IMG/VR virus record: IMGVR_UViG_3300009168_000013
Coordinates: 1-56,124 of that record
Length of the DNA stretch: 56,124 nt
Strand: one strand, 5' to 3'
Source of the DNA: a virus
Within the stretch, counting starts at the first letter, position 1; each line of letters starts with the position of its first letter. Of the stretch, positions 8,745 to 42,296 are shown piece after piece. The position numbers and the translations under genes were made by a program. The notes below the pieces were generated by a model. It was given only the letters and a program-made list of their open reading frames with translations. It had not been told where the DNA came from and made no database searches.

Positions 8745-8751
8745 GCCCCGC

Positions 8752-9192: not shown

Positions 9193-9194
9193 GT

Positions 9195-9258: not shown

Positions 9259-9266
9259 ATCCCCCT

Positions 9267-10764: not shown

Positions 10765-10766
10765 CC

Positions 10767-10799: not shown

Positions 10800-10811
10800 G
10801 GTCGTTCTGAG

Positions 10812-10850
10812 GGCGACGGCTCCGTTCTGGGGAGTGCCGGAGCCGCCGCC
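10812..10850 (+). terminator. Second hairpin, possible terminator
   Basis: GGCGACGGCTCCG pairs with CGGAGCCGCCGCC with one mismatch across a 13-nt loop. Lies just before the -10 box for the tail chaperone operon. Confidence 0.5.
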
Positions 10851-10857
10851 CTCCGGC

Positions 10858-10863
10858 TAGGGT
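10858..10863 (+). promoter_or_regulatory. -10 box TAGGGT of a leaderless start
   Basis: Preceded by CCCTCCGGC and followed 8 nt later by the ATG at 10872, with no Shine-Dalgarno. Starts the tail assembly operon. Confidence 0.55.
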
Positions 10864-10871
10864 CGCCGCCG

Positions 10872-11503: not shown

Positions 11504-11514
11504 CGCCTAGCGCC

Positions 11515-11520
11515 TAGGCT
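11515..11520 (+). promoter_or_regulatory. -10 box TAGGCT
   Basis: Lies after a short direct repeat (CTAGCGC twice) and 7 nt before the GTG of the tape measure gene. Suggests an additional leaderless start for that gene. Confidence 0.4.
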
Positions 11521-11527
11521 CTCGGTC

Positions 11528-14002: not shown

Positions 14003-15048
14003 TGGCCCTGTTCCCGCCGGGGCGGCTGACCCCCATCGACCTCATCGACCGGACGTACCGGGGAGCCCTGGCGGCCTCTGCGGCGGAGGCCGAGGCGATG
14101 GTGCCCCTGGTGGCCGCCTCGCCCCGGGCCGAGGTGCCCCAGGTGGCCTACGTGGACCTGCTCCGTTGGGACGCCAACCTGGCCCCGCTGGCCGACTGGC
14201 AGGTCGCCCTGGGCGCCATCACCTTCGGCCGGGGCACGCCCTACGGGATGCCCTCGTGGGAGGGCCTGGGCCTGCCCGACCAGCGCACCAACGACGTCGG
14301 CTTCCCCTCCCAGCACGGCGTCGTCGCCCTCGGCGACTTCCACGAGGGCCGCTCCCTCGTGTTCACCGTCTGCGTCTCCGAGGCCACCCCGGCGGCGGCC
14401 TGGGACCGGCTGCGCGCACTGGCGGGCTCCTGGCAGGCGGCCATCGTCTCCCAGCCGCTCCGCCTCGGCATCCCCGGCGTGGCGACCTTTGCCGTCATGG
14501 GCCGCCCCCGGCGCATGGAGGTCGACAACTCCCGGCTCTACCGGGGCCAGGCCGACGTCGCCCTGGAGTTCCTCGCCACCGACCCCCGCCTCTACTCCAT
14601 CGACGTCCGGGGCACCACGCTCACCCTGGCCGCCGTGGCGGCCGACACCGGGCTCTGCCTGGCCGACCCGGGCACCTGCTTCGACCTCTCCGGGTGCTCG
14701 CTCGACCTGCGGGGCTCCTCGTTCTCCGGGGCCGGAGTGGCCGACAACGGCGGCAACACCGCCACGCCCTTCGTCGCCGTGTTCCACGGCCCCGCTGTCG
14801 ACCCGGCGCTCCTCAACCTCTCCACCGGCGCCATCGTCGACTTCGAGGGCACCACCCTCCTCCCGACGGACGTGCTGGAGGTCGACGCCCATGCGCGCAG
14901 GATCGTGCTCAACGGCGATCCCCGCTACGACCTCCTCGCTCCGGGCTCGACGTTCTGGAAGTTGCTCCCGGGCCGCAACGACCTCCGCTACATCGCCGTC
15001 GCCGCCGAGGGCTCCGTCTCCGTCCGCTGGCGGGACGCCTGGCTATGA
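14002..15048 (+). CDS. Distal tail / minor tail protein, 348 aa
   Basis: ATG overlaps the tape measure stop. First gene after the tape measure, the usual place of the distal tail (Dit-like) hub protein. Contains YVDLLRWDANLAPLADWQVA, a beta-rich body, RRMEVDNSRLYRGQADVALE typical of the hub domain, and a C-terminal LTLAAVAADTGLC carbohydrate-binding-like part. Name based on position and general pattern. Confidence 0.75.
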   Translation: MALFPPGRLTPIDLIDRTYRGALAASAAEAEAMVPLVAASPRAEVPQVAYVDLLRWDANLAPLADWQVALGAITFGRGTPYGMPSWEGLGLPDQRTNDVGFPSQHGVVALGDFHEGRSLVFTVCVSEATPAAAWDRLRALAGSWQAAIVSQPLRLGIPGVATFAVMGRPRRMEVDNSRLYRGQADVALEFLATDPRLYSIDVRGTTLTLAAVAADTGLCLADPGTCFDLSGCSLDLRGSSFSGAGVADNGGNTATPFVAVFHGPAVDPALLNLSTGAIVDFEGTTLLPTDVLEVDAHARRIVLNGDPRYDLLAPGSTFWKLLPGRNDLRYIAVAAEGSVSVRWRDAWL

Positions 15049-15058
15049 AGGGACCCCC

Positions 15059-15547
15059 ATGACCGAAGTGCAGCCGCCCATGTTCGAGGCCGAGTGCTAC
15101 GACGCCGACGACATGCGGCTCCTCGTCAATGCGATGGCCCAGGGCACCGAGGGAGTCGTCGGCAACAACGACATGATCGTGACGGCGGCGGCCTCCGGGC
15201 TCGCCGTGGACGTCTCGGGCGGCTCAGTGTTCGTCGCCGGGGACACCGCCGGGCAGGGCATGTACCTCTGCGTCAACCAGGGCTCGACCCGGGTGCAGTT
15301 GGCCGCCGCCGGTGCCCAGGCCCGCACCGACCTCATCGTCGCCACCGTGTTCGACACGGCCTTCGGCGGGGCCTCCAACACCTGGCTCCTGGCCGACGTC
15401 ACCGGCACGCCGGGGGCCGGTGTCCCCGCCACCCCGCCCAACTCCACCGCCCTCGCCACGGTCGCTGTCGCCGCCGGTGCGCTGACCGTCACGGCGGGCA
15501 ACATCACCGACCAGCGAGAGAAGTCCAACGCACCCGTCTGGCAGTAG
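15059..15547 (+). CDS. Minor tail / baseplate-type protein, 162 aa
   Basis: AAGGGA lies ahead of ATG. The protein reads as the beta-rich N-terminal module of actinophage baseplate or fibre proteins: FEAECYDADDMRLLVNAMAQ, ASGLAVDVSGGSVFVAGD, ARTDLIVATVFDTA, VTGTPGAGVPATPP and GNITDQRE. Modules of this type usually attach a fibre to the tail tip. Complete in itself here, without a fused fibre. Confidence 0.75.
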   Translation: MTEVQPPMFEAECYDADDMRLLVNAMAQGTEGVVGNNDMIVTAAASGLAVDVSGGSVFVAGDTAGQGMYLCVNQGSTRVQLAAAGAQARTDLIVATVFDTAFGGASNTWLLADVTGTPGAGVPATPPNSTALATVAVAAGALTVTAGNITDQREKSNAPVWQ

Positions 15548-15550
15548 GGT
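15545..15550 (+). promoter_or_regulatory. -10 box TAGGGT overlapping a stop codon
   Basis: The TAG of the preceding gene is also the first three bases of the box. GTG follows 6 nt after it. One of several stop/-10 overlaps. Confidence 0.45.
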
Positions 15551-15556
15551 CCGGCC

Positions 15557-16612
15557 GTGCTGCTGCTGGCTGGCAACCTGCTCTCCGGCGTCATCGAGCA
15601 GGAGTTGGCCTGGGTCGAGGCCTCCTGGTCGTCAGCCCTCAACGGGCCTGGCTCCGCCTCGGTCAAGGTCCCCCTCACCCGGTACGGGGCCAACGCTGGC
15701 TCGGCGGCTGCGCCCTTCGTGGCGGCCTCCACGCTCTACATCGTCGAGGACGACGGCTCGGTCGCCTGGTGGGGAGTGGCCTGGTCGGCCGACGTCGACC
15801 CGGAGGGCCGCACCATCACCTTCGACTGTGCGGAGATTCACTCGGTCCTGGCCCGCCGGGTGCTCCGCCGGGACCTGCCCTTCGCGCAGGTGGACCAGGC
15901 CGACATCGCTGTCGCCCTCGTCACCGAGGCTCAGACCGGGACGGACCGGGACCTCCGCATCGACACCTCCCTGGTCGGCCCGACCGGCGTGCTGCGGGAC
16001 CGCAACTACCTCGGCGTGGAGCGCCCCAACCTGGGCGAGTTGCTCGGCTCGCTGGCCTCGGTCATCAACGGCTTCGACTACGACTTCCCGGCCGACTGGC
16101 CCGGCGGCGGCACCGCTCCGACGCCCCGCCTGCGCCTCGACTACCCCCGCCAGGGCCGGGTCCTCTCCCAGCCTCTCGTGGCGACCGGCCCGGTCATCCT
16201 CCGCTCGCTGTCGTACAACGGGACGGAGATGGCCTCCGACGTGGACGCTGTCGGCGACCAGGCCCTCACCGTGCCCCAGACGTCCTCCGGGCTCCTCGCC
16301 GGTCGTCCGGCGCTCGACTCGGTCGTCTCCCGCTCCACCGTCAAGGTCAACGCCACCCTGGCCGAGCACGCCGCCTCGTGGCGAGCCGACCACGATGAGC
16401 CCGCCCGCTCCGCTCAGGTGGAGGTCGCCCTCGAACCAGCCGACGCTCTCGGTGTGCGCGTAGGCGACGTCGTGCGCCTGATCGAGATGGACTCGGTCGG
16501 CCTCGACGCCCCCTTCCTCGTCACCGGCGTCTCGACCAACGTCGCCGGTGCGGGCCGCCTCGTCTCGCTGGCCCTCTCGTGGCCTGTTGCTCTCGGCGGG
16601 GAGGAGACGTGA
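15557..16612 (+). CDS. Minor tail protein (tail hub type), 351 aa
   Basis: GTG start behind TAGGGT. Beta-rich protein: SVKVPLTRYG, STLYIVEDDGSVAWWGVAW, TITFDCAEIHSVLARRVLR, LGELLGSLASVINGFDYDF, and a late VRVGDVVRLIEMD ... FLVTGVSTNVAGAG repeat of the hub fold. This pattern matches the second minor tail protein of actinophages, related to the siphophage hub/Tal N-terminal domain. No catalytic domain seen. Stop overlaps the next GTG. Confidence 0.75.
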   Translation: MLLLAGNLLSGVIEQELAWVEASWSSALNGPGSASVKVPLTRYGANAGSAAAPFVAASTLYIVEDDGSVAWWGVAWSADVDPEGRTITFDCAEIHSVLARRVLRRDLPFAQVDQADIAVALVTEAQTGTDRDLRIDTSLVGPTGVLRDRNYLGVERPNLGELLGSLASVINGFDYDFPADWPGGGTAPTPRLRLDYPRQGRVLSQPLVATGPVILRSLSYNGTEMASDVDAVGDQALTVPQTSSGLLAGRPALDSVVSRSTVKVNATLAEHAASWRADHDEPARSAQVEVALEPADALGVRVGDVVRLIEMDSVGLDAPFLVTGVSTNVAGAGRLVSLALSWPVALGGEET

Positions 16613-17382
16613 CGCTCGACCCGCTCGCCGCCGAACTGCTCCGCCTGGGCACGCACGTCTCCCGGCTGGAGCGCCGCCAACGCTCAGCGGGCTCGGGCGG
16701 CGGCGGCGGAGTCACTGACCACGGCCTGCTCACCGGCCTGGGCGACGACGACCACCCGCAGTACCTCCGCCCGGCCGAGGTGCTGGCGGGCACCGCCCTC
16801 ACGGCGCTCTACAACCCCGACGGGACGGTGCTGCTCTCCGTCGACACGGCCTCGCTCCCGCCGCCGACGGTGCCGAACGAGGTCGTCGTCTCCGCCACCG
16901 ACCCGATCGGCTCAGTGCCGGAGGCAGAACTGTGGTGGGACCCGGACGCTTCGCCTGCGCCCTTCTCCGGCGGCGGCGGCCTGGTCACCTCGCAGCGCAT
17001 CACCTTCACCTCGGTCGCCTTCGCCGGGACGGAGGTGGCCCTCTCGGGCATCACCGCCGTCTGGACGGCCGACCCGGGTCGGCGCTACAAGATCGGCGTC
17101 ACCGGGCTGCTCCAGTCGACGGTCGCCGCCGACGTCGTGTTCCTCCGGCTGCGCCTCGGCTCCGTCACCGGCACCCAGGTCGGCGGAGTCAACCACCTCT
17201 GCGCCGTGTCGACGCACGCCCTCACCTTCACCGGCACCACGTTCGTCTCCGGGCTCTCCGGGTCGCAGACCGCCGTGCTCACCGGGCAGCGCGCAGCGGG
17301 CACCGGCAACATCACCCAGGTCGCCACGGCGACCGCCCCGACCTGGCTCTGGGTCGAGGACATGGGACCGGGGGCCGTCTGA
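16609..17382 (+). CDS. Minor tail / fibre base protein, 257 aa
   Basis: GTG overlaps the hub stop. A short coiled start with LEAARLRR-like helix (LRLGTHVSRLERRQ) is followed by a Gly-rich hinge and HGLLTGLGDDDHPQYL, the HxxLxGLxDDDHPQY motif of phage fibres and tail tip proteins. The rest is beta-rich (TAVWTADPGRRYKIGVTGLL) and ends in WLWVEDMGPG, a jelly-roll-like pattern. It probably links the tail tip to the fibre made by the next gene. Confidence 0.75.
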   Translation: MTLDPLAAELLRLGTHVSRLERRQRSAGSGGGGGVTDHGLLTGLGDDDHPQYLRPAEVLAGTALTALYNPDGTVLLSVDTASLPPPTVPNEVVVSATDPIGSVPEAELWWDPDASPAPFSGGGGLVTSQRITFTSVAFAGTEVALSGITAVWTADPGRRYKIGVTGLLQSTVAADVVFLRLRLGSVTGTQVGGVNHLCAVSTHALTFTGTTFVSGLSGSQTAVLTGQRAAGTGNITQVATATAPTWLWVEDMGPGAV

Positions 17383-23742: not shown

Positions 23743-24003
23743 GTGGACCTGATCGTGCTCTGCTCCTGGTGCTCCGCCCCGGCGACCCGGGTGGAGGGCT
23801 CTGCGGCTCTCTGCGGGCCGTCGTGCCCCGCCCGGCCACTCCCGCCGCCCCCGGTCGACCTGGCTGCCGTGGCGGGCCTCCTGGGCCGCTCTCCGGCGCC
23901 CTGCACCTCCTGCGGGGCCGTCCACTTCCTCCCGCCCCGGCAGACGACGGGCCGCCGCTGCCTGCTCACCCCCGGCTGCGACGGCTGGCACCGTGTCCGC
24001 TGA
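23743..24003 (+). CDS. Zinc-ribbon-like protein, 86 aa
   Basis: GTG with GGAGG at 23733-23737. Has CSWCSAPA, ALCGPSCPA, PCTSCGAVHF and RRCLLTPGCDGWH, that is, four paired Cys clusters suited to one or two zinc-binding sites. Its end overlaps the PLP enzyme start, so they are co-translated. Function unknown; possibly nucleic acid or partner binding. Confidence 0.65.
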   Translation: MDLIVLCSWCSAPATRVEGSAALCGPSCPARPLPPPPVDLAAVAGLLGRSPAPCTSCGAVHFLPPRQTTGRRCLLTPGCDGWHRVR

Positions 24004-25012
24004 GCGCCTCGCCGGGACGCTGACCGGCTGGGAGGCCCTCGCCCGGGCCGTCACCCCGGTCCACGTCCTCGGCGGCCACCCCGTCAAGCGTGACGACCTG
24101 TTCGCCCCGCTCGGCGTCGGCTCGATCAACGGCTCGAAGTTGCGCCAGTTGCTCTACCTCGTCGGCCATGCTGCGCGCAACGGGGCGGACGGGATCGTGA
24201 CGGCGGCCTCGGTCCTCTCGCCGCAGGTCCCGATGACCGCTGCTGTCGCCGCCCACTTCGGCCTCCCCTGCCACATCATCCTCGGCGGGACGGTGCTGGA
24301 GCGGGCTCGCCGCAACCCGGGAGTCGCCCTGGCGGAGTCGTTCGGCGCCACCTTCGGCTTCACCTCGGTCGGCTACAACCCGGCGCTCCAGGCGGCCTGC
24401 CGACGGGCTCTCGACGAGCGCCCGGGCTGGTCGAGGGTCCCTTACGCGATCAGCCTGCCCGAGCGGGGCGACATCGGCGACATCGAGGCACTCGGCGACA
24501 TCGGCGACTTCCACCGGCTAGGCGCGCAACAGGTGGCGAACCTGGGCGACGTCCGCACGCTCTACGTCCCCTTCGGCTCCGGCAACTCTGCGGCCTCGAT
24601 CCTCTACGGCCTCGCCCTCGCCCCCGAGACGGCCGTGGAGAAGGTCGTCCTGGTCGGTGTGGGTCCGTCTCGCCTCGACTGGCTGGCACGGCGCCTGGGG
24701 ACGCTGAGCGCCCTCTCCGGGGCCGACGTGGAGGGCTGGCTCGCCCGGGTCGAGCATCACGACCTGCACGGCCTCGGCCTCGTCGCCTACCACGACCGCC
24801 GGGTCGCCTCCCTGGGCGGCCTGCGCCTGCACCCGACCTACGAGGGCAAGGTGCTCTGGTGGCTCCGCAAGCACGCCGACCCGGCCTCGCCGTGGCACCG
24901 TGACCCCCGGGGCTCCGGCCTCTGGGTCGTCGGCTCGGAGCCTGTTGCGCCCCGCCAGCCCGCCGTGCGAAAGTCGACGGGCCGCCCCCGCAGGGACGGC
25001 CCAACCGACTGA
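23993..25012 (+). CDS. PLP-dependent enzyme, ACC deaminase / D-cysteine desulfhydrase-like, 339 aa
   Basis: GTG overlaps the previous stop. The fold is the tryptophan-synthase-beta (type II PLP) kind. VKRDDLF (31-37) and SINGSKLRQL (45-54) carry the predicted Schiff-base Lys49; SVLSPQ and YNPALQ stand where the substrate loop of the family lies, and FGSGNSAAS (194-202) fits the phosphate-binding Gly/Ser loop. Such enzymes deaminate or exchange small amino acids. In a phage, roles in modifying a base-linked amino acid or in making a building block for one are possible, but its own locus lies 10 kb from the dioxygenase operon. Substrate unknown. Confidence 0.75.
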   Translation: MSAERLAGTLTGWEALARAVTPVHVLGGHPVKRDDLFAPLGVGSINGSKLRQLLYLVGHAARNGADGIVTAASVLSPQVPMTAAVAAHFGLPCHIILGGTVLERARRNPGVALAESFGATFGFTSVGYNPALQAACRRALDERPGWSRVPYAISLPERGDIGDIEALGDIGDFHRLGAQQVANLGDVRTLYVPFGSGNSAASILYGLALAPETAVEKVVLVGVGPSRLDWLARRLGTLSALSGADVEGWLARVEHHDLHGLGLVAYHDRRVASLGGLRLHPTYEGKVLWWLRKHADPASPWHRDPRGSGLWVVGSEPVAPRQPAVRKSTGRPRRDGPTD

Positions 25013-31025: not shown

Positions 31026-31156
31026 CCGGCATCGTCCCCGACGAAGGGACCTGCGACGGCTGCGGCAAGTGGCTCTCCAGCGACGACGGCTACGTCGTTA
31101 TCGAGGACGGTGTGCGCTACCGCTTCTGCGACGAATGCCCGGAGGACGACGCATGA
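31022..31156 (+). CDS. Mini zinc-binding protein, 44 aa
   Basis: ATG overlaps the previous stop; its own stop overlaps the methyltransferase start. Has TCDGCGKWL and FCDECPEDDA, two CxxC pairs ~22 residues apart, enough for one zinc site, with a beta hairpin between (GYVVIEDGVRYRF). Similar tiny ribbons appear often in actinophages. Confidence 0.6.
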   Translation: MTGIVPDEGTCDGCGKWLSSDDGYVVIEDGVRYRFCDECPEDDA

Positions 31157-32124
31157 GGCCCCTGTTCCCCTACTTCGGCTCCAAGGGACGTGCCGCTGCC
31201 CTCGTCTGGGAAGCCCTGGGCGACCCCGACCTGTACCTGGAGCCCTTCGCCGGGTCGCTCGCCGTGCTCCTCGCCCGGCCCTCCGTCCCCCGGGTGGAGG
31301 TCGCCGTCGACACCGACGGGCTCATCGTCAACTTCTACCGCACGCTCCGCTCCGACCCGGGTGCCCTCCTCGACGCCGTGCCGCTCCCGGTCGCCGAGGT
31401 CGACGTCTGGGCCGCGCAAGTGAGGCTGATCGAGCGGGCCGAGGGCCTCACCGAGCACCTGCGGACGTCGCCCTACTACTTCAACGCACCGCTGGCGGGC
31501 CTCTGGTGGTACGGCGTCTCCTCGTGGCTGGGCTCGGGCTTCCCTGGTCGGCGCCCGGCCCGGCAGCGTCCCCACATCGACCGCTCTCTCAAAGGACTCC
31601 ACGCCCGGGGCATGCACGACGACCGGGTGCTCTCCGTCGCCGCCCGCCTCGCCAACGTCGTGCTCCTCGCCGACGACTGGCAGGAGGGCTGGCTGCGCGT
31701 GTTCGGCGGGGCTCGCAACCCTGACTCGGTCATCGACCGCTGGGCCAAGCACGATCCTCCGGGCTCGGTCGGCGTGTTCCTCGACCCGCCCTACGCCCGG
31801 GTCACGGCGGGCTCGGCCCGCTCCGGCGGCCTGTACCGCCGGGAGTGGGACGCCGACATGACGGCCCGGCTGCGCGCATGGTGCGTCGACCACACCGAGA
31901 TGCCGCACGTCTCGGTCGTGCTCGCCGGGTACGACGACGAGTACGAACTGCCCGGGTGGAACGGCGTGGAGTGGCACGCCCCCAACGGCTACGCCCAGGA
32001 GGGCAACGCCCGTCGCCACCGTGAGGTGCTCCTGATGAACCCGGCGGCCTGGCGCCGCTTCGAGGGCACCCACCTCGCCCCCGGCGTCCACCCCAACCAG
32101 ATGCACCTGGAGCCGCTGTCGTGA
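31153..32124 (+). CDS. dam: D12-class DNA adenine methyltransferase, 323 aa
   Basis: ATG overlaps the small gene upstream. RPLFPYFGSKGRAA (2-15) is motif X/I of the D12 (Dam-type) family, DLYLEPFAGSLAVLL holds the AdoMet-binding loop, and VFLDPPYA (DPPY at 211-214) is the catalytic motif. N6-adenine methylation is expected, protecting phage DNA from host nucleases or marking it. It is not a C5-cytosine enzyme: no PC/ENV pair is seen. The C-terminus (YEL PGWNGVEWHAPNG) is near the target-recognition region. Partner for the TET-like dioxygenase by itself is therefore unlikely. Confidence 0.85.
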   Translation: MRPLFPYFGSKGRAAALVWEALGDPDLYLEPFAGSLAVLLARPSVPRVEVAVDTDGLIVNFYRTLRSDPGALLDAVPLPVAEVDVWAAQVRLIERAEGLTEHLRTSPYYFNAPLAGLWWYGVSSWLGSGFPGRRPARQRPHIDRSLKGLHARGMHDDRVLSVAARLANVVLLADDWQEGWLRVFGGARNPDSVIDRWAKHDPPGSVGVFLDPPYARVTAGSARSGGLYRREWDADMTARLRAWCVDHTEMPHVSVVLAGYDDEYELPGWNGVEWHAPNGYAQEGNARRHREVLLMNPAAWRRFEGTHLAPGVHPNQMHLEPLS

Positions 32125-34078: not shown

Positions 34079-34375
34079 ATGCCTACCGCAACCCTCTCCA
34101 CGCCCACCCGGCGGCGCAACCCTCGTGGTCAGCCGCTCACGCCCGAGGCCCGCTCCCTCCTCGTCGACCTGACCCAGACGCAGCACCGCATCAACGAAGG
34201 TGCGCGCATGGTCGCCGAAGGTACGGAGGCCCGGCGCCGCCTGCTCTGGGACCTCTACCACGAGCGGGGCATCAGCCAGACCGACCTCGCCGAGTGGCTC
34301 TCCGCCGCCGGGGAGCCCATCGGCCCCGACCTCGTGCAGAAGGCGCTCCGGGCCGTGCGGGAGACGGGCCTGTAG
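34079..34375 (+). CDS. Helix-turn-helix regulator, first gene of the hypermodification operon, 98 aa
   Basis: Leaderless ATG. RRRLLWDLYHERGISQTDLAEW continues with LSAAGEPIGPDLVQKALR, a standard two-helix unit where GISQ and IGPD lead into the turn and the recognition helix. Similar to the short HTH proteins before phage operons. A preceding basic segment (TRRRNPRG) could also bind DNA. With the inverted repeat at its own -10, negative autoregulation of the operon is the likely role. Confidence 0.7.
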   Translation: MPTATLSTPTRRRNPRGQPLTPEARSLLVDLTQTQHRINEGARMVAEGTEARRRLLWDLYHERGISQTDLAEWLSAAGEPIGPDLVQKALRAVRETGL

Positions 34376-34379
34376 CCCG

Positions 34380-35000
34380 ATGGCTGTCCTGGCTCAGACC
34401 TACGAGCCTGCCTGCCCCATCGACTCCCTCTCCGAGCACCCCGCCAACCCCCGGGTCGGCGACATGGAGGCCCTCGGCGAGTCGATCCGGGTCAACGGCT
34501 TCTACGGGGCCGTCGTGGCGCAGGTGTCCACCCGCCACGTCCTGGCGGGCAACCACCGCCTCCGCAAGGACGCCGAGCAGGGCGCCACCACGATCCCGGT
34601 GCTCTGGGTCGACGTGGACGACGACCTGGCCCTCCGCATCCTCGTCGGCGACAACCGCTTCCCGGCCCTCGCCGGGTACGACGACTCCGGGCTGGCCCGG
34701 CTCCTCGGCTCGCTCCTCGGCGTGCCCGCCGGGCTCCTCGGCACCGGCTACTCGGCCGACGCTGCGGACCTCCTGCTGCGCCTCCTGGCCGAGGGGGACT
34801 CGCATGGTGCTGTCGCCCCGGGGCTGACGCCGGGGGAGCGAGAGGAAGCCTGGGCGGCCTCTGCGATGCAATCCCTGGTGCTGCCCTACCCGCCCGCCGA
34901 CCACGACGCCGTCGCCTCCGCCATCGACGCCGCCGGGCACCCTGCGGAATCACGCTCGGACACGGTGCTGCGCCTCCTCCGGGCGGCCACCAGTGCGTGA
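34380..35000 (+). CDS. ParB-like nuclease-domain protein 1, 206 aa
   Basis: ATG five bases after the HTH gene. ParB/Srx-type fold: CPIDSLSEHPANPRVGDMEA, LGESIRVNGFYGAVVAQ, HVLAGNHRLRKDAEQG (GxHRxxA-like box) and DLALRILVGDNRFPALAGYD. The C-terminal half has LRLLAEGDSHG and SLVLPYPPADHDAVASAIDA. ParB-like domains accompany TET/JBP genes in predicted phage DNA-modification clusters, where they may bring the enzymes to DNA or act as CTP/ATP switches. Overlaps the dioxygenase gene by eight bases. Paralogue of the gene at 35841. Confidence 0.8.
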   Translation: MAVLAQTYEPACPIDSLSEHPANPRVGDMEALGESIRVNGFYGAVVAQVSTRHVLAGNHRLRKDAEQGATTIPVLWVDVDDDLALRILVGDNRFPALAGYDDSGLARLLGSLLGVPAGLLGTGYSADAADLLLRLLAEGDSHGAVAPGLTPGEREEAWAASAMQSLVLPYPPADHDAVASAIDAAGHPAESRSDTVLRLLRAATSA

Positions 35001-35844
35001 GGTCGCCCTGTACCGCTGCCCGGTCAACGTCGCCCCTCGCTCGCAGGCCGACCCCCCGGGGCCAGGTGCTGTCGTGCTCGACGGCGACGTGCTCCTGCGG
35101 GACGCCGACTCCGGGGCCGCCGTCGCCCTCCAGGCTGTCGCCGCCCGAGGCCCCGCCACCATCATCGCCTCGCTGCTGCGCCACCTGGCCTGGGCGGAGC
35201 GCGCACCCCGGTACGGGGCCGTGGCGACGGGGGAGTCTCGCCTCTCGGGCATCGCCGTCTCCAACAGCGTGTTCGGCGCTCTCCCGCCGGTGCCGCTGCG
35301 CCGCCGGTACGGCTGCTGCCGGGCCGCCCTCGACACCGACCGGCCCGACCTCGTCTCCCACCTCTCCCATGTCGCCGTGCTCTCCGCCGCCCTCGCCGCC
35401 GACGTCCTCCCCGACGAGTTCGCCGCCTGGGCCGCCGCCGTGGAGGCCCGGGTCCCTGCGGCCTGGCGCATGGCCGACACCCTCTGGACCTCCGGCGTCA
35501 TCAACAACAACTCTGCCCACCCCTACCACCGGGACGCCTCCAACGTCCGGGGCTCCTGGTCGGCGATGCTCTCGATGAAGGCGCACCTGGAGGGCGGCTG
35601 GCTCCACCTGCCCGACTACGGCTGCTACCTCGCCGTGCCCGACGGCGCCCTCACCCTGTTCGACGGCGGGCTCCTCCTCCACGGCGTCACGCCCTTCCGG
35701 CTCACCAAGCCCTCCGGGTACCGCTTCACCGTCGTCTACTACGCCCGGGCCGGGCTCTCCGCCTGCGCGCAAGACCCGGCGGAGGAGCCTGCGAGAGCCG
35801 CGAGAGTCGCCTACGAGGCCGCACGAGCCCGGGTCCAGCCATGA
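34993..35844 (+). CDS. TET/JBP-type 2-oxoglutarate, Fe(II) DNA dioxygenase, 283 aa
   Basis: GTG overlaps the first ParB-like gene. The conserved double-stranded beta-helix core lies at ~165-252. HPYHRDASN (176-184) gives the iron ligands His179 and Asp181, and Asn184 is typical of the TET/JBP group; HGVTPF holds the distal ligand His230; GYRFTVVYY has Arg244 for 2-oxoglutarate. GGWLHLPDYG (201-210) is the expected strand. The N-terminal ~100 residues include FGALPPVPLRRR, also seen in this group. These enzymes hydroxylate 5-methylcytosine (TET) or thymine (JBP) in DNA. Which base is used here is open, because no C5 methyltransferase is seen. Confidence 0.85.
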   Translation: MREVALYRCPVNVAPRSQADPPGPGAVVLDGDVLLRDADSGAAVALQAVAARGPATIIASLLRHLAWAERAPRYGAVATGESRLSGIAVSNSVFGALPPVPLRRRYGCCRAALDTDRPDLVSHLSHVAVLSAALAADVLPDEFAAWAAAVEARVPAAWRMADTLWTSGVINNNSAHPYHRDASNVRGSWSAMLSMKAHLEGGWLHLPDYGCYLAVPDGALTLFDGGLLLHGVTPFRLTKPSGYRFTVVYYARAGLSACAQDPAEEPARAARVAYEAARARVQP

Positions 35845-36419
35845 TCGAGCGCCAGACGTTCCACGCCGACTACCCGCTCGCAGACCTCGTGCCCCACCCG
35901 GACAACCCTCGCCGGGGCGACGTGCTCTCCCTGGCGGAGGCCATCGAGGCCCTCGGCTTCTACGGGGCGATCTACCTCCACGGCGACTCCTCCGTCGTGC
36001 TGGCGGGCTGGCACCGGGTCCTGGCCCTCCACGCCACCGGCGTCACCGCCGCCCCGGTCATCCGCCTCTACTGCTCCGACGCCACCGCCCTCCGGGTGAT
36101 GCTGGCCGACAACCGCATCGGCGACCTCGGCCATGAGGACCCGCTGCTCCTCGGCGACGCCCTGGCCGCCCTGGCCGCCTCGCCGCTGGGCCTGGCGGGC
36201 ACCGGGTACACGGAGGACGACCTGGCCGACCTGATGGCCGCCGCCGAGGCCGCCTCGCCCTGGGGCTCCTCGGTCGCTCAGGGCGGCGAGTCACGCTCCC
36301 TGGTGCTCCTGTACGACGCCGCCGGGCTGCGCGAGGTCGTCGGCCACATCGACGCTCTCTGCTCCCGCTGGGGCCTCGACTCGGCTGCTGCTGTCGTGCG
36401 CCGCCTCGTGCTCTCGTGA
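35841..36419 (+). CDS. ParB-like nuclease-domain protein 2, 192 aa
   Basis: ATG overlaps the dioxygenase stop by four bases. Contains PLADLVPHPDNPRRGDVL, EALGFYGAIYLHGDSSVVLA, GWHRVLALHATG and ALRVMLADNRIGDLGHED, the same order as the gene at 34380. C-termini are also alike (SLVLLYDAAGLREVVGHIDA against SLVLPYPPADHDAV). The pair probably arose by duplication and may form a heterodimer clamp around the modified DNA. The box here is GWHR instead of GNHR. Confidence 0.8.
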   Translation: MIERQTFHADYPLADLVPHPDNPRRGDVLSLAEAIEALGFYGAIYLHGDSSVVLAGWHRVLALHATGVTAAPVIRLYCSDATALRVMLADNRIGDLGHEDPLLLGDALAALAASPLGLAGTGYTEDDLADLMAAAEAASPWGSSVAQGGESRSLVLLYDAAGLREVVGHIDALCSRWGLDSAAAVVRRLVLS

Positions 36420-36967
36420 GGGGAGCCCTGTACGTCATCGGCCCTCCCGGCTCCGGCAAGTCTCTCGGCCTCGTGACGGCTCTCGGCCTCGCCGGGCTCC
36501 TGCCCCAGACCTCCGCCGATCAGCCCTTCGCCATGACGCTGCACAACTCCCTCGACGGCACCCGGCCCACCTGGGTCCTGGGCCGCCCTGGTGGCCCCTT
36601 CTCCGGCACCGACGCTCTCGCCATGAACGTCGCCCCTCGTGTCAGAGAGTGGCTCCTGGGGGCCTCTCCGGCGGCCGTGGCGGCTGAGGGCGACCGCCTC
36701 GCCAACCCGGTCACCCTCGACGCCCTCTGGCACGCCTTCCCGACGGGCCGCCTCGCCGTGCTCGACCTCCCGCCCGCCCTCTCCTGGGACCGCATGGTGC
36801 GCCGGGCCGAAGCCCTGGGCCGCCCGCCGCAGAGCGAATCCTGGTGGAAGGGGAGGGTCACCAAGACCCTGAACCTGGCTGCGCGCTACGCCGACATCGC
36901 CGTCCGGGTCGACGCCACCGGCTCGCCCGACGACGTCGCCGAGGCCCTCGTGCCGCTCCTCCCGTAG
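36416..36967 (+). CDS. P-loop kinase, putative modified-base kinase, 183 aa
   Basis: GTG overlaps the ParB-like stop. Walker A is GPPGSGKS (9-16). The rest follows the phage DNA base kinase type: NSLDGTRPTWVLGR, a long insert with MNVAPRVREWL, TGRLAVLDLPPALSWDRMV, and an ADIAVRVDATGSPDDVAEAL end. Such kinases activate 5-hydroxymethyl pyrimidines in DNA with a (pyro)phosphate for the next enzyme. Direct coupling to an aGPT-PPlase-like gene is the strongest argument for this role. Confidence 0.75.
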   Translation: MRGALYVIGPPGSGKSLGLVTALGLAGLLPQTSADQPFAMTLHNSLDGTRPTWVLGRPGGPFSGTDALAMNVAPRVREWLLGASPAAVAAEGDRLANPVTLDALWHAFPTGRLAVLDLPPALSWDRMVRRAEALGRPPQSESWWKGRVTKTLNLAARYADIAVRVDATGSPDDVAEALVPLLP

Positions 36968-38070
36968 TGGACCTCTCCGGCGTCGACCTGCGCGCAACGG
37001 CCTACCGCCGGGAGACGTTCCTCCGCTCCTGGGAGTTCACCCTCACCTACGGCACCCACCCGGGCTGCGTCTACCTGGCCTGGCCCACCCTCACCCGGCT
37101 CCTCTCCTGGTCGCCGGAGGAGGCCCTCTGGTACGCCTTCATCAACGGCAACACCCAGCACCCCGCCACCTCCCTCGTGCTCTGGCACGCTGCCCCGCTG
37201 CCCCGCCACGCCGACCGCCTGGTCGACGCCTGGCGCTCCCTGTACGGCTCCCTGGCCTTCGACACCGACCGCCGGTACCACCGCAAGGCGCTCCCCGCCG
37301 CCGTGCTGTCGTACCTCGGCCTCATCGGCGGCGGAAGCCAGGAGGCCTTCTGGCGGGCTCGGGCTGGGGAGGGCTGGGCCTCGTGCTGGGCCTCGGCCCG
37401 CTCCGTCGCCACCTTCGGCCGCCTCTCGGCCTGGTCGTACCTGGAGTACGTCCGGCTCTGCGGCATCGCCCTCGACGCCGACTCGCTCATGCTCACCGAC
37501 CGTGACGGCTCCCGCTCGCACCGCAACGGCCTGGCCATCGTCGAGGGCTCCGACGACCTGGACTGGCACGCCTCCAACCTCGGCTACCGTGGCTACCAGG
37601 CGGCGGACCTGGAGCGTCTGGCGGACCTGGGGGAGGGCCTGCTGGCCGACATGCACCTGCGCGCAGCGGGGCAGCCCTGGGCCGCCGACGTCTCCCGGCT
37701 CACGCTGGAGTCGGCCCTCTGCACGTACAAGGGATGGCACCGCCCCGACCGGCGCTACCCCAACGTCTACGCCGACATGATGCACGACCGCCTGGTCGCC
37801 GCCGAGGCCGCCCATCCGACGGTCGACTTCTCCCCTCTCTGGGCCGCCCGGGCCGCCGTGCTGCCCGCCACGCTGCGGCTGGAAGATTCCCCCGGGGACC
37901 CGGGGCTGGGGCCTCTCAAGCAGAACTTCTACCGGCTCTCCGGGCGGCAGCACACCCTCGGCCTCCGCTGGCCCGATATGCTGTCTGACCTGGACGGACG
38001 CCTCGCCGACGGCTCGCTCGGGACCTTCCGCTCTCCCCGGGACATAGGCCGTTCGGCTCATCTCGCGTAG
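36967..38070 (+). CDS. Alpha-glutamyl/putrescinyl-thymine pyrophosphorylase-like protein, 367 aa
   Basis: GTG overlaps the kinase stop. Residues: LTYGTHPGCVYLAW (~26-39), FINGNTQHPATSL (58-70), LAFDTDRRYHRKALP (96-110), FGRLSAWSYLEYVR (150-163), LTDRDGSRSHRNGLA (176-190) and ESALCTYKGWHRPDRRYP (248-265). These are the blocks of the aGPT-PPlase family, which replaces a pyrophosphate on 5-hydroxymethyl-pyrimidine in DNA with an amine or amino acid. Conserved Arg/His/Asp residues appear intact. It would be the last step after dioxygenase and kinase. The amine donor is not known here; the 23993 enzyme or host metabolites are possibilities. Confidence 0.8.
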   Translation: MDLSGVDLRATAYRRETFLRSWEFTLTYGTHPGCVYLAWPTLTRLLSWSPEEALWYAFINGNTQHPATSLVLWHAAPLPRHADRLVDAWRSLYGSLAFDTDRRYHRKALPAAVLSYLGLIGGGSQEAFWRARAGEGWASCWASARSVATFGRLSAWSYLEYVRLCGIALDADSLMLTDRDGSRSHRNGLAIVEGSDDLDWHASNLGYRGYQAADLERLADLGEGLLADMHLRAAGQPWAADVSRLTLESALCTYKGWHRPDRRYPNVYADMMHDRLVAAEAAHPTVDFSPLWAARAAVLPATLRLEDSPGDPGLGPLKQNFYRLSGRQHTLGLRWPDMLSDLDGRLADGSLGTFRSPRDIGRSAHLA

Positions 38071-38121: not shown

Positions 38122-39162
38122 ATGACCGTTCAACTCACCTCCGCTCGGGCCTTCGGCGTCGAGATCGAGTGCCACTCCCGGCTGTCGTTCGACACCCTCG
38201 CCCGTACCCTCTCGGCTGCCACCGGCCTCCAGTTTGAAGTTCAGGGCTGGTCGCAGCACACCACCGCTGCCCGGGGCCACAACCGGGGCACCTGGAAGAT
38301 CGTCCCCGACGGCTCGCTGAGCCACACCACCGGCAAGGAGGTCGTCTCCCCGGTGCTGTCGGGCGACGAGGGTGCCCGCCAGGTCACCGCCGTCCTGACC
38401 GCCCTTCGGGACGCCGGGGCGACCGTCGACCGGGCCTGCGGCATGCACGTCCACCACGACGCCAACGACATCACGGTCGACGGCATGGTGCGGCTGGTCG
38501 AGGGCTTCGCCGCCCGCCAGGTCAGCCTCATGGACCGCTTCGTCTCCCCGAGCCGCCGCAACGGCCGCTGGGCCTCACGGCTCTCCGGGGCCGAGGTCCG
38601 CACGGCGACCAACGCCCTCTCCAACGGCTACGCCGCTGCCCAGCGTGGCACCTGCGGAGTGGACCGCTACCGGGCACTCAACCTCCTCGCCTACGCCTCC
38701 TACGGCACGGTGGAGTTCCGCCAGCACCAGGGGACGCTGAACGCCTCCAAGGTGCTCGCCTGGGTCGCCCTCGGCCAGGCCATCGTCGAGGCCGCCATCG
38801 ACGGGACGCTCCCGGGGATGCAGACCTCGATCGAGTTCCTCAACGAGGCTGTCGGCTCCGGGCTCATGCACGGCTCGGCCGCCCGCTCGCTCACCCGCCG
38901 GGCCGCCGCCTTCGGCTTCGACGCTCCGGCCATCACGGCTCGCTCCTCGATGAGCCGCGCAGCGCAGGGTCGCCGCACCCGGGTCGCCAACGTCTCGGAG
39001 GAGACGGATGCCGAGGCCTTCCACCTCCGCTCGGCGGGGCGCACCTGGCGTCAGGTCGCCGAGGCACTCGGGCTCGCCCGGGAGTCGTCGGCCCGCACGG
39101 CCGCCGGTCGCCACTCGGCCCGCATCGGCGCCTCGGTCGGGTACGTCCCGACCGGGGCCTGA
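38122..39162 (+). CDS. Amidoligase-family protein (COOH-NH2 ligase), 346 aa
   Basis: Leaderless ATG. FGVEIECHS (11-19), CGMHVHHDA (106-114) and VEFRQHQGTLN (197-207) are the three signature blocks of the phage amidoligase family (glutamine-synthetase-like fold): metal-binding Glu pair, H-x-H and the E-x-R...G strand. They join an amine to a carboxylate using ATP. The C-terminal ~70 residues, with LRSAGRTWRQVAEALGLAR, read as a helix-turn-helix, an added domain that may bind DNA. Family neighbourhoods with glutamine amidotransferase and cyclotransferase are known from comparative genomics; the substrate is not. Confidence 0.8.
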   Translation: MTVQLTSARAFGVEIECHSRLSFDTLARTLSAATGLQFEVQGWSQHTTAARGHNRGTWKIVPDGSLSHTTGKEVVSPVLSGDEGARQVTAVLTALRDAGATVDRACGMHVHHDANDITVDGMVRLVEGFAARQVSLMDRFVSPSRRNGRWASRLSGAEVRTATNALSNGYAAAQRGTCGVDRYRALNLLAYASYGTVEFRQHQGTLNASKVLAWVALGQAIVEAAIDGTLPGMQTSIEFLNEAVGSGLMHGSAARSLTRRAAAFGFDAPAITARSSMSRAAQGRRTRVANVSEETDAEAFHLRSAGRTWRQVAEALGLARESSARTAAGRHSARIGASVGYVPTGA

Positions 39163-39187
39163 CCCCCCAGGAATCTCCGCCGCCAGG

Positions 39188-39216
39188 TTGTGTTCCCGCC
39201 TGGCGGCGGCTAGTCT
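39188..39216 (+). promoter_or_regulatory. Long repeated promoter, copy 4 (no upstream box)
   Basis: -35 TTGTGT at 39188-39193, spacer TCCCGCCTGGCGGCGGC (17 nt), TAGTCT at 39211-39216. AATCTCCGCCGCCAGG is kept upstream, but CGTTCGGC is missing. A ~37-nt leader with AAAGGA precedes GTG 39254, so this copy is leadered. Confidence 0.75.
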
Positions 39217-39253
39217 ACCCCTACCACCACGACGTCTCGAAAGGACTCCGCCA

Positions 39254-40195
39254 GTGTGCGGCATCGCAGGTTTCTCACGCAGGGGCTCCGGCTCCACCTT
39301 CCCCGCCGGGGATCTATCCCTGGCCCTCGCCCTCGCCATCGAGGCCCGAGGCCCCCACGCCACCGGCTACGGCTGGATCGACGAGGCCTCCGCCTGGCCC
39401 TACTTCTGGAAGGAGCAGGGGCGGGCCTCCCTGGTCGCCGACCTCTGCGCCGTCACCCGGGACCCCGAGGTGCGGACGCTCATCGCTCACACCCGGTACG
39501 CCACCCAGGGCTCGCCCTCGGTCGCCGCCAACAACCACCCGGTCGTCGCTCCCGGCATCGTCCTGGTGCACAACGGCGTCGTCACCAACGACGACGCCCT
39601 GTTCCGCACCCTCGGCGTGGAGCGCATGGCGGAGGTCGACTCCGAGGTCATCGCCGCCCTGCTGTCGTACTCGGGCATGGACCCCTGGCTCGCCCTCGCC
39701 GAGTTGCGCGGACGGGCCGCTGTCGCCTGGCTCGACGCCGACTCGCCCGACACGCTGCACCTCGCCCGGGTCACCGACTCGCCCCTCCACTACGCCCACA
39801 CCAAGGGCGGAGCGTTCATCTTCGCCTCCACGGCCAAGGCCATCAACGACGCCGCCGGGCTGGCCCAGGTTCGCCTGGTGGGCCGGGTGCGCTCGGTGGA
39901 CGAGGGCACCTACCTCCGGGTCGTGCGGGGCGACATCACCGTCGTCCGCCGCATCGCCATCACCCGCACCGCCACGACCGGGCCTCGGCTCGACCAGGGC
40001 GCCGCCCCCGCCAAGAAGAAGGGCAAGAAGGGACGCCACGCCAACCAGGGCCGCCTGCTCTCCGTCGCCCCCGACCCGGCGACCTGGGACTGGACGGACG
40101 GCCGGGGCATCACCGACCGCTTCGCCCGCCCGGCGACCGCCACCCAGCCGCCGGAGCCCTACTGGGCCTGGCGCAACCGGGACGAGGGCAAGTGA
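39254..40195 (+). CDS. Class II glutamine amidotransferase, 313 aa
   Basis: GTG is followed at once by the catalytic Cys2 (VCGIAGFSRRG), as Ntn hydrolases need after removal of the initiator Met; AAGGA lies about 9 nt before. GPHATGYGWID, IAHTRYATQG, NNHPVV and VLVHNGVV are conserved GATase II blocks. The glutaminase domain covers about 1-220. No synthase domain follows; instead there is a Lys-rich segment (AAPAKKKGKKGRHANQGR) and a short end. It would release ammonia from glutamine for the amidoligase or for another transferase. Confidence 0.85.
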   Translation: MCGIAGFSRRGSGSTFPAGDLSLALALAIEARGPHATGYGWIDEASAWPYFWKEQGRASLVADLCAVTRDPEVRTLIAHTRYATQGSPSVAANNHPVVAPGIVLVHNGVVTNDDALFRTLGVERMAEVDSEVIAALLSYSGMDPWLALAELRGRAAVAWLDADSPDTLHLARVTDSPLHYAHTKGGAFIFASTAKAINDAAGLAQVRLVGRVRSVDEGTYLRVVRGDITVVRRIAITRTATTGPRLDQGAAPAKKKGKKGRHANQGRLLSVAPDPATWDWTDGRGITDRFARPATATQPPEPYWAWRNRDEGK

Positions 40196-40374
40196 CCTCC
40201 CGCCTCTCGCCCGCCGCCCAGGTGCAGGCCGCCCTGGGCCGCCTGGCCGCCACCACCCGCTCCCTCCGGGCCGAACCCTGGGGGGAGCGCAGCGACGTGG
40301 AGGCGCAGGCCGCCCTCGACGTCGTCCACGCCGCCCACCGCCTGCTCCGCTCGCTCACGAAAGACACGCCATGA
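40192..40374 (+). CDS. Small helical protein, 60 aa
   Basis: GTG overlaps the amidotransferase stop. The product is helical (LSPAAQVQAALGRLAATTRSL; then EAQAALDVVHAAHRLLRSL) with no motif; end overlaps the next ATG. Supported by tight overlaps. Confidence 0.5.
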   Translation: MTSRLSPAAQVQAALGRLAATTRSLRAEPWGERSDVEAQAALDVVHAAHRLLRSLTKDTP

Positions 40375-40652
40375 AGCCCCAGAAGTACCCGGTACCGCTC
40401 CGCTCCCGCTGGAGCGTGCTCATCGAGTTCGACAACGCCATCCAGGTCAGCGGCACCTCCGCCACCGACCTCCTCGCCCGGCTGGGCACCGTCCAGTGGC
40501 TCGCCGACTGGAAGCCGGTGCCCGAGATGAAGCGCCTCCTGGCCCACCGGGTCGAGGTGCTCACCAGCACCGTCGTCGACCCGGCGATGGACGACGACGA
40601 CTTCCTCGACGCCTGCGGGGCGGCCGGGGCCTTCCGGGTCGTGCGCCGATGA
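40371..40652 (+). CDS. Hypothetical protein, 93 aa
   Basis: ATG overlaps the previous stop by four bases. Basic N-terminus (MKPQKYPVPLRSRWSVLIEF), then QVSGTSATDLLARLGTVQWLADWKPV and an acidic patch (DPAMDDDDFLDACG). No known domain. Part of the operon downstream of the amidotransferase. Confidence 0.55.
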   Translation: MKPQKYPVPLRSRWSVLIEFDNAIQVSGTSATDLLARLGTVQWLADWKPVPEMKRLLAHRVEVLTSTVVDPAMDDDDFLDACGAAGAFRVVRR

Positions 40653-40852
40653 GCGAGCCCGAGCGCCGTCCTCGGACGGTGTACGACGAGCAACTGCCCC
40701 GCATCATCGCCGCCGCCGAGGCCCGGGCCGCCGCCGTGCGCGCAGCCGGGCTCCGGCGCCGGTGCGTCGTCTGCGGCCGGGCGATGCTGGTGCAGCCCGC
40801 CGACTGGGACCGCCACAAGACCTGCCGCACTCCCCAACACGAAGGAACCTGA
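40649..40852 (+). CDS. Small zinc-finger-like protein, 67 aa
   Basis: ATG overlaps the previous gene. After a helix (LPRIIAAAEARAAAVRAAGL) it has RRCVVCGRAMLVQPADWDRH and KTCRTPQH, a CxxC...H...C arrangement for one zinc. Resembles short FCS-type fingers. Function unknown. Confidence 0.6.
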   Translation: MSEPERRPRTVYDEQLPRIIAAAEARAAAVRAAGLRRRCVVCGRAMLVQPADWDRHKTCRTPQHEGT

Positions 40853-41250
40853 TGGACACCGACCACGACACCGCTCCCGCCTCCCGGGGCCTCACCGCCG
40901 AGGAGCACGCCGCCCTGGCCTCCCGGGTCGCCGCCCGGCTCTCCGCCGACGGCCGGGTGACGGCCAACGCTGCCCAGACGCTCGCCGCCGTCGCCCAGGC
41001 CCACGCTGCTGCGGCCGCCGCCCTCCGGGCCAACCCTGCCCTCGCCTACGCGCACGCCGGGCTCCCGCCGTGCGGGGCGACGGTGCAGGACGGCCGGGGC
41101 TCCGCCTGGTGCTCCCGGCGCTCCGGGCCGTGCCCCTACCCCGGGGCCGCCCACGGCTACGTGACCGTCGTGGCCACCGGGGAGCACCGCTACACGCCCT
41201 GCGCCGCAACGGGGGACCTCCTCGCCCACGAGAACGACGATCATGGCTGA
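40852..41250 (+). CDS. Hypothetical protein, 132 aa
   Basis: ATG overlaps the previous stop; GAAGGAA just ahead can act as ribosome site. Ala-rich helices (EEHAALASRVAARL; AHAAAAAALRANPAL) come first, then a Cys/His-rich end with PCGATVQDGRGSAWCSRRSG, PCPYPGAAHGYVTVV and YTPCAATGD. Possibly metal-binding. Overlaps the next start. Confidence 0.55.
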   Translation: MDTDHDTAPASRGLTAEEHAALASRVAARLSADGRVTANAAQTLAAVAQAHAAAAAALRANPALAYAHAGLPPCGATVQDGRGSAWCSRRSGPCPYPGAAHGYVTVVATGEHRYTPCAATGDLLAHENDDHG

Positions 41251-41650
41251 GACGGCATCTGAGGGGCCTCTGCGGCATCCCTCGTGCGACGTCTCCCGGT
41301 GCGGCCGGGCCGCCGTGCTCCGGGTCCGCTTCCACCGGGCCTGGCGGCCGTACTGCGCCTTCCACGGCCTCGACCGTCGTGGCGCCGTCCGCTGGCCCGG
41401 GTACGACGTGGAGCCGCTGGGTCGTTCGGCCCATTCCTCAGGAATCTCGCCGGAGAGGTTGTCTGGCCGCCGCCCGGCGGCTAGTCTACCTCACATGACC
41501 ACAACCCCGACGTACCGGGTCCTCACCGAGGACATGGAAGGCGCCGTGGACGTGCTGGCCCGCAACCTCTCCGAGGCCCAGGCCGATGCGCTCCTCGCCA
41601 ACGCCCGCCGTGAATCCCACGTCGCCTTCGCCTGGAAAGAGGCCCGCTAA
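41243..41650 (+). CDS. Long in-frame form: zinc-like module reading into the 51-aa gene, 135 aa
   Basis: ATG overlaps the previous gene. HPSCDVSRCGRAAVLRVRFH and YCAFHGLDR suggest a small zinc module. No stop occurs before the second promoter or the ATG at 41495, so translation from here passes through the promoter region (RRPAASLPH) into the shorter protein. Either a 135-aa fusion is made as well, or the promoter invaded the gene end. The same arrangement recurs at 43207-43662. Confidence 0.5.
   Translation: MAETASEGPLRHPSCDVSRCGRAAVLRVRFHRAWRPYCAFHGLDRRGAVRWPGYDVEPLGRSAHSSGISPERLSGRRPAASLPHMTTTPTYRVLTEDMEGAVDVLARNLSEAQADALLANARRESHVAFAWKEAR
41249..41271 (+). repeat. 23-bp dispersed repeat, copy 3
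   Basis: GAGACGGCATCTGAGG with GGCCTCT, coding for ETASEGPL right after the start codon of the 41243 frame. Confidence 0.7.
41423..41487 (+). promoter_or_regulatory. Long repeated promoter, copy 5
   Basis: CGTTCGGC at 41423-41430, CCTCAGGAATCTCGCC, -35 TTGTCT at 41459-41464, spacer GGCCGCCGCCCGGCGGC (17 nt), TAGTCT at 41482-41487, ATG 7 nt later at 41495. Confidence 0.85.
41495..41650 (+). CDS. Small protein from leaderless start, 51 aa
   Basis: ATG 7 nt after TAGTCT; begins MTTTPTYRVLTEDMEGAVDV and continues with a helix (LARNLSEAQADALLANARRE). Similar starts (MTTTP, MTTPA) follow other copies of the promoter. First gene of the unit that also includes the cyclotransferase. Function unknown. 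Confidence 0.65.
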   Translation: MTTTPTYRVLTEDMEGAVDVLARNLSEAQADALLANARRESHVAFAWKEAR

Positions 41651-41652
41651 TC

Positions 41653-41769
41653 ATGGACATCTACGACCGCATCTGCCCCGAGTGCCTGGGCGACGTATTC
41701 GACACCTTCGGCCTCACCGGCCACGGCTGCGATTGCACGCCCGAGGTGGACGAGGAGGAGGACGCATGA
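41653..41769 (+). CDS. Mini Cys-rich protein, 38 aa
   Basis: ATG three bases after the stop of the 51-aa gene; stop overlaps the next ATG. Contains ICPECLGDVFDTFG and HGCDCTPEVDEEED, a CxxC...CxC pattern, with an acidic tail. Probably one zinc site. Role unknown. Confidence 0.55.
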   Translation: MDIYDRICPECLGDVFDTFGLTGHGCDCTPEVDEEEDA

Positions 41770-42296
41770 GCGACCTCGACCCCTTCGGCCCCGCCCTCAC
41801 CTCGCTGGAGGAGGAGGGCTGGGGCGAGTGCGCCACCTGCGGCTCGCTCACCCAGGCGGAGGGCTCCGTCTGCGCCGTCTGCCTGGCGCTGGCCTTCGCC
41901 CCCGCTCCCCCGGCCGACGACGCCGTGTTCGTCTACGGCACGCTCCGCCCGGGCTGCGGCAACGACCGCCTCTGGCAGGGCACCGGGACGACCGCGCACC
42001 TCGCCGTCGCCACCGGCATCCGCCTCCACGGCCTCGGCCGGGCCTTCCCCTACGCCGTCGAGGCCACCGAGGACGTCACCTTCGGCACGCTCCTCATCTT
42101 CCCCGAGGCCGAGCGCGCAGCCCTGCTGCAACGCTTCGACTGGCTGGAGGGCACGCCCCACCACTACGTCCGGCAGACTGTCCGGGTCGCCACCTTCGAC
42201 GGCCACCGCTCGGCCTGGGTCTACCTGGCCGCCGACGAGGCCCGGGCCACGGCCCTCCCGCCGGTGCCCGGCAACGACTGGACGAACGTCCGGTAG
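41766..42296 (+). CDS. Gamma-glutamylcyclotransferase-like protein with zinc N-terminus, 176 aa
   Basis: ATG overlaps the previous stop. CATCGSLTQAEGSVCAVC (residues ~20-37) is a zinc ribbon. The GGCT/AIG2-like domain follows: VFVYGTLRPGCGNDRLWQG (phosphate/substrate loop YGTLRxG), GRAFPYAVEATEDVTFGTLL, and LEGTPHHYVRQTVRV. A catalytic Glu is expected on the FPEAERAALLQRFDWLEG helix. Such enzymes cut gamma-glutamyl bonds. With the amidoligase and amidotransferase it completes a known co-occurring trio. Confidence 0.8.
   Translation: MSDLDPFGPALTSLEEEGWGECATCGSLTQAEGSVCAVCLALAFAPAPPADDAVFVYGTLRPGCGNDRLWQGTGTTAHLAVATGIRLHGLGRAFPYAVEATEDVTFGTLLIFPEAERAALLQRFDWLEGTPHHYVRQTVRVATFDGHRSAWVYLAADEARATALPPVPGNDWTNVR

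Follow-up and report, generated by a model that had tools for sequence, protein, structure and literature searches.

Gene content of the locus

The window analysed here, the whole 56,124-nt stretch of the viral record IMGVR_UViG_3300009168_000013, carries a TET/JBP-type gene within a tight run of genes that reads ParB (34200), TET, ParB (35841), PF18751 kinase (36416) and amino acid:DNA transferase (ADDT, 36967), then amidoligase and glutamine amidotransferase (GATase). The features that matter for its interpretation are listed below.

23993–25012, plus strand: PLP-dependent enzyme, ViI type, proposed to process the amino acid once it is attached (PF00291, 1e-9)
31069–32124: D12 methylase (DPPY motif)
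34200–35000, plus strand: ParB-like protein, upstream partner of TET (phrog_723, 5e-30)
34993–35844, plus strand: TET/JBP dioxygenase, proposed thymine hydroxylase (283 aa; Pfam Tet_JBP, 1e-13; AlphaFold2 pLDDT 91; TET2 Z 20.1)
35841–36419, plus strand: second ParB-like protein (phrog_723, 2e-22)
36416–36967, plus strand: P-loop kinase PF18751, proposed kinase of the hydroxymethyl base in DNA (Ploopntkinase3, 6e-17)
36967–38070, plus strand: amino acid:DNA transferase (ADDT, PF18724; ADDT, 6e-14)
38122–39162, plus strand: amidoligase, perhaps a further tailoring enzyme, weak link (Amidoligase_2, 1e-29)
39008–40195, plus strand: glutamine amidotransferase, amidoligase partner, weak link (GATase_6, 7e-20)
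41586–42296, plus strand: gamma-glutamyl cyclotransferase-like protein, weak link (GGACT, 3e-17)

The ADDT reading frame opens at 36844, and its likely start is a GTG at 36967 that overlaps the TAG stop codon of the kinase gene. A ParB-like gene also adjoins TET in the majority of relatives, as seen in the flanks of the TET loci, and no TET-associated glycosyltransferase was found in the flanks of the window TET. The PLP gene lies 10 kb upstream of the TET cassette; its product contains the NGSK lysine motif and is 44% identical to the PLP enzyme encoded within the cassette of another viral contig, L158.

The amidoligase, GATase and gamma-glutamyl cyclotransferase-like genes (38122–42296) come after the cassette. 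The idea that amidoligase and GATase belong to the cassette proper was considered and dropped: the pair is present in 3 of 70 TET loci, occurring with TET in Kharcho (L012) and L071/L086, and it is also found in phages that have no TET match, such as Arthrobacter phage Salgado (L094).

A dioxygenase with a TET fold

Tet_JBP is the sole Pfam match of the protein encoded at 34993–35844, with an E-value of 1e-13 that passes the cut-off; the same search of the 283-aa product found no J-DNA-binding domain. No substitutions occur among 54 aligned homologues at the iron-binding residues H179, D181 and H230, at the arginine for 2-oxoglutarate, R244, or at N184 and Y250, and the iron triad (HxD...H) and the 2-oxoglutarate arginine align with those of TET2 and NgTet1. 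An AlphaFold2 model built from 46 window or viral sequences reached a pLDDT of 91. In structure it comes closest to TET2 (Z 20.1) and NgTet1 (Z 19.9), with CMD1 and CcTet next, whereas other dioxygenases score at most 14 (AlkB and FTO at 13–14). Alignment and predicted fold thus confirm the assignment to the TET/JBP family of dioxygenases, with the iron triad present, and the predicted activity is oxidation of the 5-methyl group of a DNA pyrimidine.

A comparison of the active site with known enzymes had been suggested as a way of telling which base is acted on. Run against TET2 and NgTet1, it places N184 at the position of TET2 N1387 and R252 at that of TET2 H1904 and NgTet1 H297. Across 70 non-redundant relatives, the R252 position is Leu, Lys, Met, Arg, Ile or Ser and never His. 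We dropped this position as a marker of thymine versus cytosine: it is not diagnostic, because the C5 methylase-linked phage TETs (L029, L043 and L158) also have no His there. As far as residues go, the base contacts are not decisive between thymine and cytosine.

Enzymes missing from an apparently complete genome

A perfect direct repeat of 123 bp links the end of the record to its start (1–123 and 56002–56124), and one open reading frame runs across the junction. The record looks like a complete phage genome of ~56.0 kb, probably circular or permuted, and the absence of an enzyme family from it is therefore meaningful. Profile searches of the full record in six frames found neither the C5 methylase family PF00145 nor the thymidylate synthase/hydroxymethylase family PF00303 at E ≤ 1, and a profile search of the whole record found no ThyX (PF02511). 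This bears out the statement in the initial annotation that no C5-cytosine methyltransferase or hydroxymethylase is seen. That annotation had also described the only methyltransferase, placed at 31153, as a D12 adenine type, in agreement with the gene called at 31069–32124, which is an amino-methylase rather than a C5 enzyme because it has the DPPY motif. A 369-aa gene at 44137, put forward as a place where a C5 methyltransferase might hide, turned out to hold none: it has no Pfam match, all of the C5 motifs PCQ, ENV and QRRxR are missing and a scan of viral_contigs found no relatives of it.

Exchange of TET for a thymidylate-synthase homologue

The transferase offers a view of the pathway that does not start from TET. 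Eighty loci were chosen with the window-type transferase clade alone as query, ignoring neighbouring genes. TET was present in 64 of them, a PF18751-type kinase like that of the window in 68, a PLP enzyme in 64 and ParB in 61; a C5 methylase was within reach in one. Five of the 80 have a thymidylate-synthase homologue, all of them together with a 5-hmdU-type kinase, and not one locus has both TET and the synthase homologue (p ~2e-4, several loci being near copies). Whole records divide in the same manner—PF00303 in none of 32 with TET and in 5/5 without it, in 6/6 of the ViI-type phages, all of which lack TET, and in 8/8 of the hydroxymethylase-type phages tested—with PF00145 in 4 of the 32 TET-bearing records, although many of the compared phages are related and the counts overstate the number of independent events. 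In these genomes, TET and the thymidylate-synthase homologue substitute for each other on a shared backbone of transferase and PLP enzyme.

This backbone is kin to that of the ViI-type phages. The window PLP enzyme matches 347 of 50,697 phage records (best E 2e-54), mostly from ViI-type groups (Salmonella, Vibrio, Klebsiella, Escherichia and Dickeya), and the window transferase matches 374, with a list much like that of the PLP enzyme. The link between PLP enzyme and TET is no accident of the window, because relatives have the gene for this enzyme within the TET cassette itself (L066, L079, L083, L088, L158 and others). Its family and kinship newly mark the PLP enzyme at 23993–25012 as a probable third pathway gene beyond kinase and ADDT. 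The family profile of the window ADDT matches the transferases of ViI (8e-33), Vibrio phage 1.255.O (1e-38) and M6 (gp51, 3e-21). On the transferase tree, the window enzyme groups with the transferases of TET cassettes that carry a PLP gene, in a clade sister to the ViI-type transferases with 100/99 support; the same relation is recovered at 100/100 when the longest branches are left out, the branches that join the two groups being long.

The initial annotation had ascribed both the kinase and the aGPT-PPlase-like protein to thymine hypermodification. For the latter this holds, the protein being an ADDT (PF18724) of a clade sister to the ViI type. For the kinase it needs a correction: the window enzyme belongs to PF18751 rather than to the 5-hmdU kinase family PF18748, which comprises the kinases of M6 (gp54) and of the ViI-type Vibrio phage 1.255.O, and direct BLAST gave no match between the window kinase and M6 gp54. 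Judged by family, the window kinase is a replacement too, a different enzyme from the PF18748 kinase.

The simplest account of the exchange is that TET stands in for the hydroxymethylase as the source of 5-hydroxymethyluracil, which would be made in DNA from thymine. The transferase and PLP steps are shared, and only the hydroxymethyl source and the kinase change. The early suggestion that the enzyme may hydroxylate thymine in DNA like JBP thus draws support from the gene context, namely the ViI-sister transferase, the PLP enzyme and the TET/synthase swap.

The same suggestion had left room for cytosines methylated by the host. In that case, the window TET would oxidise 5-methylcytosine laid down by a host C5 methylase, giving hypermodified cytosine at a few host-methylated sites. 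TETs that oxidise 5-methylcytosine do share the fold—TET2, NgTet1 and CcTet are among the best structural matches—and the alignment of N184 with TET2 N1387 is compatible with this substrate. Yet a host may methylate few of the cytosines in phage DNA, as illustrated by T4 GT7 DNA from Dcm+ cells with 0.3% 5-methylcytosine (PMC7653180), the transferase and PLP enzymes are kin to enzymes of a thymidine pathway, and a cassette spread over many phages would hinge on the methylase of each host. Host-methylated cytosine is therefore possible but decidedly unlikely as the substrate, and thymine is the better supported option. Three observations weigh against thymine: a kinase family other than that of M6, the 10 kb that separate the PLP gene from the cassette in the window, and the C5 methylase near the closest relative of the TET, described below.

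C5 methylases and other partners of phage TETs

Among records selected for TET, PF00303 was found in 0/42 and PF00145 in 0/14 and 6/50, mostly far from TET; within the fetched TET flanks, a C5 methylase is present in L029 and L043 only. Because PF00145 is rare in TET-selected records, most TETs of the window family appear to act without a phage-encoded C5 methylase.

The closest relative of the window TET, that of L158 (42% identical, sister with 99/94 support), does have such a neighbour: a C5 methylase lies 3 kb upstream of a ParB–TET–ADDT–PLP–kinase run, an arrangement whose weight is inflated because this TET was first found via a C5-methylase query. In L029, from the same nine-row TET clade as the window, a C5 methylase is ~4 kb from TET. 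These two neighbourhoods speak for a phage 5-methylcytosine dioxygenase of the C5 methylase–TET type, with the methylase of the window lost or too diverged to detect. Against this, PF00145 is absent at E ≤ 1 from the window, and the records of L016, L017 and L024, all of this clade, gave no match to it; the C5 methylase at a single one of the 80 transferase-anchored loci also counts against it, as does the fact that similar methylases are common in phages generally (at least 1641 of 50,697 phage records). We regard a lost or diverged methylase as very unlikely.

The L158 cassette is of interest in its own right. C5 methylase, ParB, TET, ADDT, PLP enzyme and kinase lie close together (7986–16924 of a 49.7-kb viral contig), and the target could be cytosine, thymine or both.

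The genes that accompany TET vary in a regular way. A glycosyltransferase is present in 27 of 70 non-redundant TET loci and an ADDT/aGPT-type transferase in 28, with no locus having both (Fisher p 6e-9), and on the TET tree loci of the two kinds are intermixed. This shuffling of partners fits two ways to finish one hydroxymethyl base. It also bears on whether the window cassette is decayed or has a target that is not a DNA base, for instance RNA or a protein. The substrate of the cassette is deduced rather than observed, and the nearby amidoligase and GATase are tailoring enzymes of a general kind, both of which leave some room for such a role. However, the use of either glycosyltransferase or transferase is what would be expected of alternative finishes of one base, and decay is at odds with catalytic residues that are all kept and with homologues at 85–93% identity that retain the cassette. 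A non-DNA target or a decayed cassette is thus extremely improbable.

Several further TET settings came to light. In cyanophage MED4-117 and viral contigs, TET lies beside an FkbM-type methyltransferase (L013:5808–6509; also L042, L043, L072 and L075), a setting that would yield an O-methylated hydroxymethyl base. Arthrobacter phage Bolt007 has TET, a glycosyltransferase with a weak TAGT match and a PIG-L-type deacetylase in a row (L007:5776–8047), which suggests an aminosugar analogue of base J. A 327-kb viral contig contains two TET genes 2.5 kb apart (L087:7884–11286); a survey of jumbo phages reports no TET/JBP (PMC7824862). Names in GenBank records of relatives (e.g. NC_011044, PQ184799, NC_049504) can mislead: TET is called queuine tRNA-ribosyltransferase, the kinase adenylate kinase or terminase small subunit, the ADDT DNA glycosylase and the PLP enzyme threonine ammonia lyase. 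One record of a relative names TET a thymidine hydroxylase.

A proposed route to hypermodified thymine

From the gene set, the families, the absences and the swap pattern, we infer a substrate base, an order of steps and a product. Once the phage DNA is replicated, the dioxygenase would add a hydroxyl to the 5-methyl group of its thymines and so produce 5-hydroxymethyluracil; a methylase or nucleotide hydroxymethylase would be dispensable because thymine already bears the methyl group. The P-loop kinase encoded next to TET would phosphorylate the hydroxyl of 5-hydroxymethyluracil, and the amino acid:DNA transferase would swap the phosphate for an amino acid. Processing of this amino acid would fall to the PLP enzyme (23993)—by decarboxylation, if the analogy with ViI holds. 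The ParB-like proteins probably aid site choice.

The end product would be a bulky, protective base like the 5-(2-aminoethoxy)methyl-uracil of ViI; that it is this very base, as predicted by analogy from the ViI-type transferase and PLP enzyme, has roughly an even chance. It is unlikely, though conceivable, that a true thymidine hydroxylase of a bacterial virus is here combined with the amidoligase, amidotransferase and gamma-glutamyl cyclotransferase, which would acylate or trim the amine of the finished base to give a still larger thymine bearing an amide or peptide, of a kind new to biology. For the central step, we consider it highly probable that the window TET hydroxylates thymine in the phage's own DNA and so feeds a ViI-type hypermodification without a hydroxymethylase.

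If so, hypermodified thymine can arise without an altered nucleotide pool, and bacterial-virus counterparts of the trypanosome JBP would be small, single-domain thymine hydroxylases useful for DNA labelling.

Relation to known DNA modification systems

To our knowledge, the sole published activity of a phage TET is on 5-methylcytosine. Some phage TETs are known to act on cytosine in concert with C5 methylases (Burke 2021, as cited in PMC12730594), and the C5 methylase–TET–glycosyltransferase system of cytosine hypermodification resembles the window in placing a phage TET in a DNA-tailoring cassette. It needs the C5 methylase, however, whereas the window has neither this enzyme nor a TET-associated glycosyltransferase nearby. 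Base J of kinetoplastids shares with the window a TET/JBP enzyme (JBP1/JBP2) proposed to hydroxylate thymine in DNA; a second enzyme then decorates the hydroxylated thymine (PMC10276184). Unlike JBP, the window has no J-binding domain and no glycosyltransferase, but a kinase and a transferase instead.

The window also resembles actinophage cassettes with ParB, TET, kinase and ADDT-type genes, as in Rhodococcus phage Tonitrus, Gordonia phage CaiB and mycobacteriophage Prince; mycobacteriophage Hangman carries such a set as well. In addition to these genes, the window has a PLP enzyme of the ViI type and a second ParB, and its TET differs considerably from theirs (only ~33–35% identical). The TET–kinase–transferase cassette of Tonitrus has been described as likely thymine hypermodification (PMC11955845) and the CaiB genes as nucleotide modification enzymes (PMC9302106). 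That annotation is thus already known, and in the literature we found no experiment establishing which base these actinophage cassettes modify. New here, at the level of gene families and trees, are three points: a PLP enzyme of the ViI type as partner, a transferase clade that is sister to the ViI type, and a clean exchange of TET for hydroxymethylase. Annotators assign thymine hypermodification to many TET cassettes with no experiment behind the label; the swap sharpens the substrate question.

The products of Salmonella phage ViI and Pseudomonas phage M6 are 5-NeOmdU and 5-NedU. The DNA of both contains bases derived from 5hmdU and made through a 5hmdU kinase (PMC6449724). With this thymidine hypermodification the window shares the families of the amino acid:DNA transferase and PLP enzyme, but it has a TET dioxygenase where that pathway has the PF00303 hydroxymethylase and a PF18751 kinase where that pathway has one of PF18748, and the hydroxymethyl group, which ViI and M6 make on the nucleotide, would be made in DNA. 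We do not file the window under the hydroxymethylase-fed pathway, because the defining enzyme is absent; in all likelihood, its pathway stands outside that one as a TET-fed variant of thymidine hypermodification.
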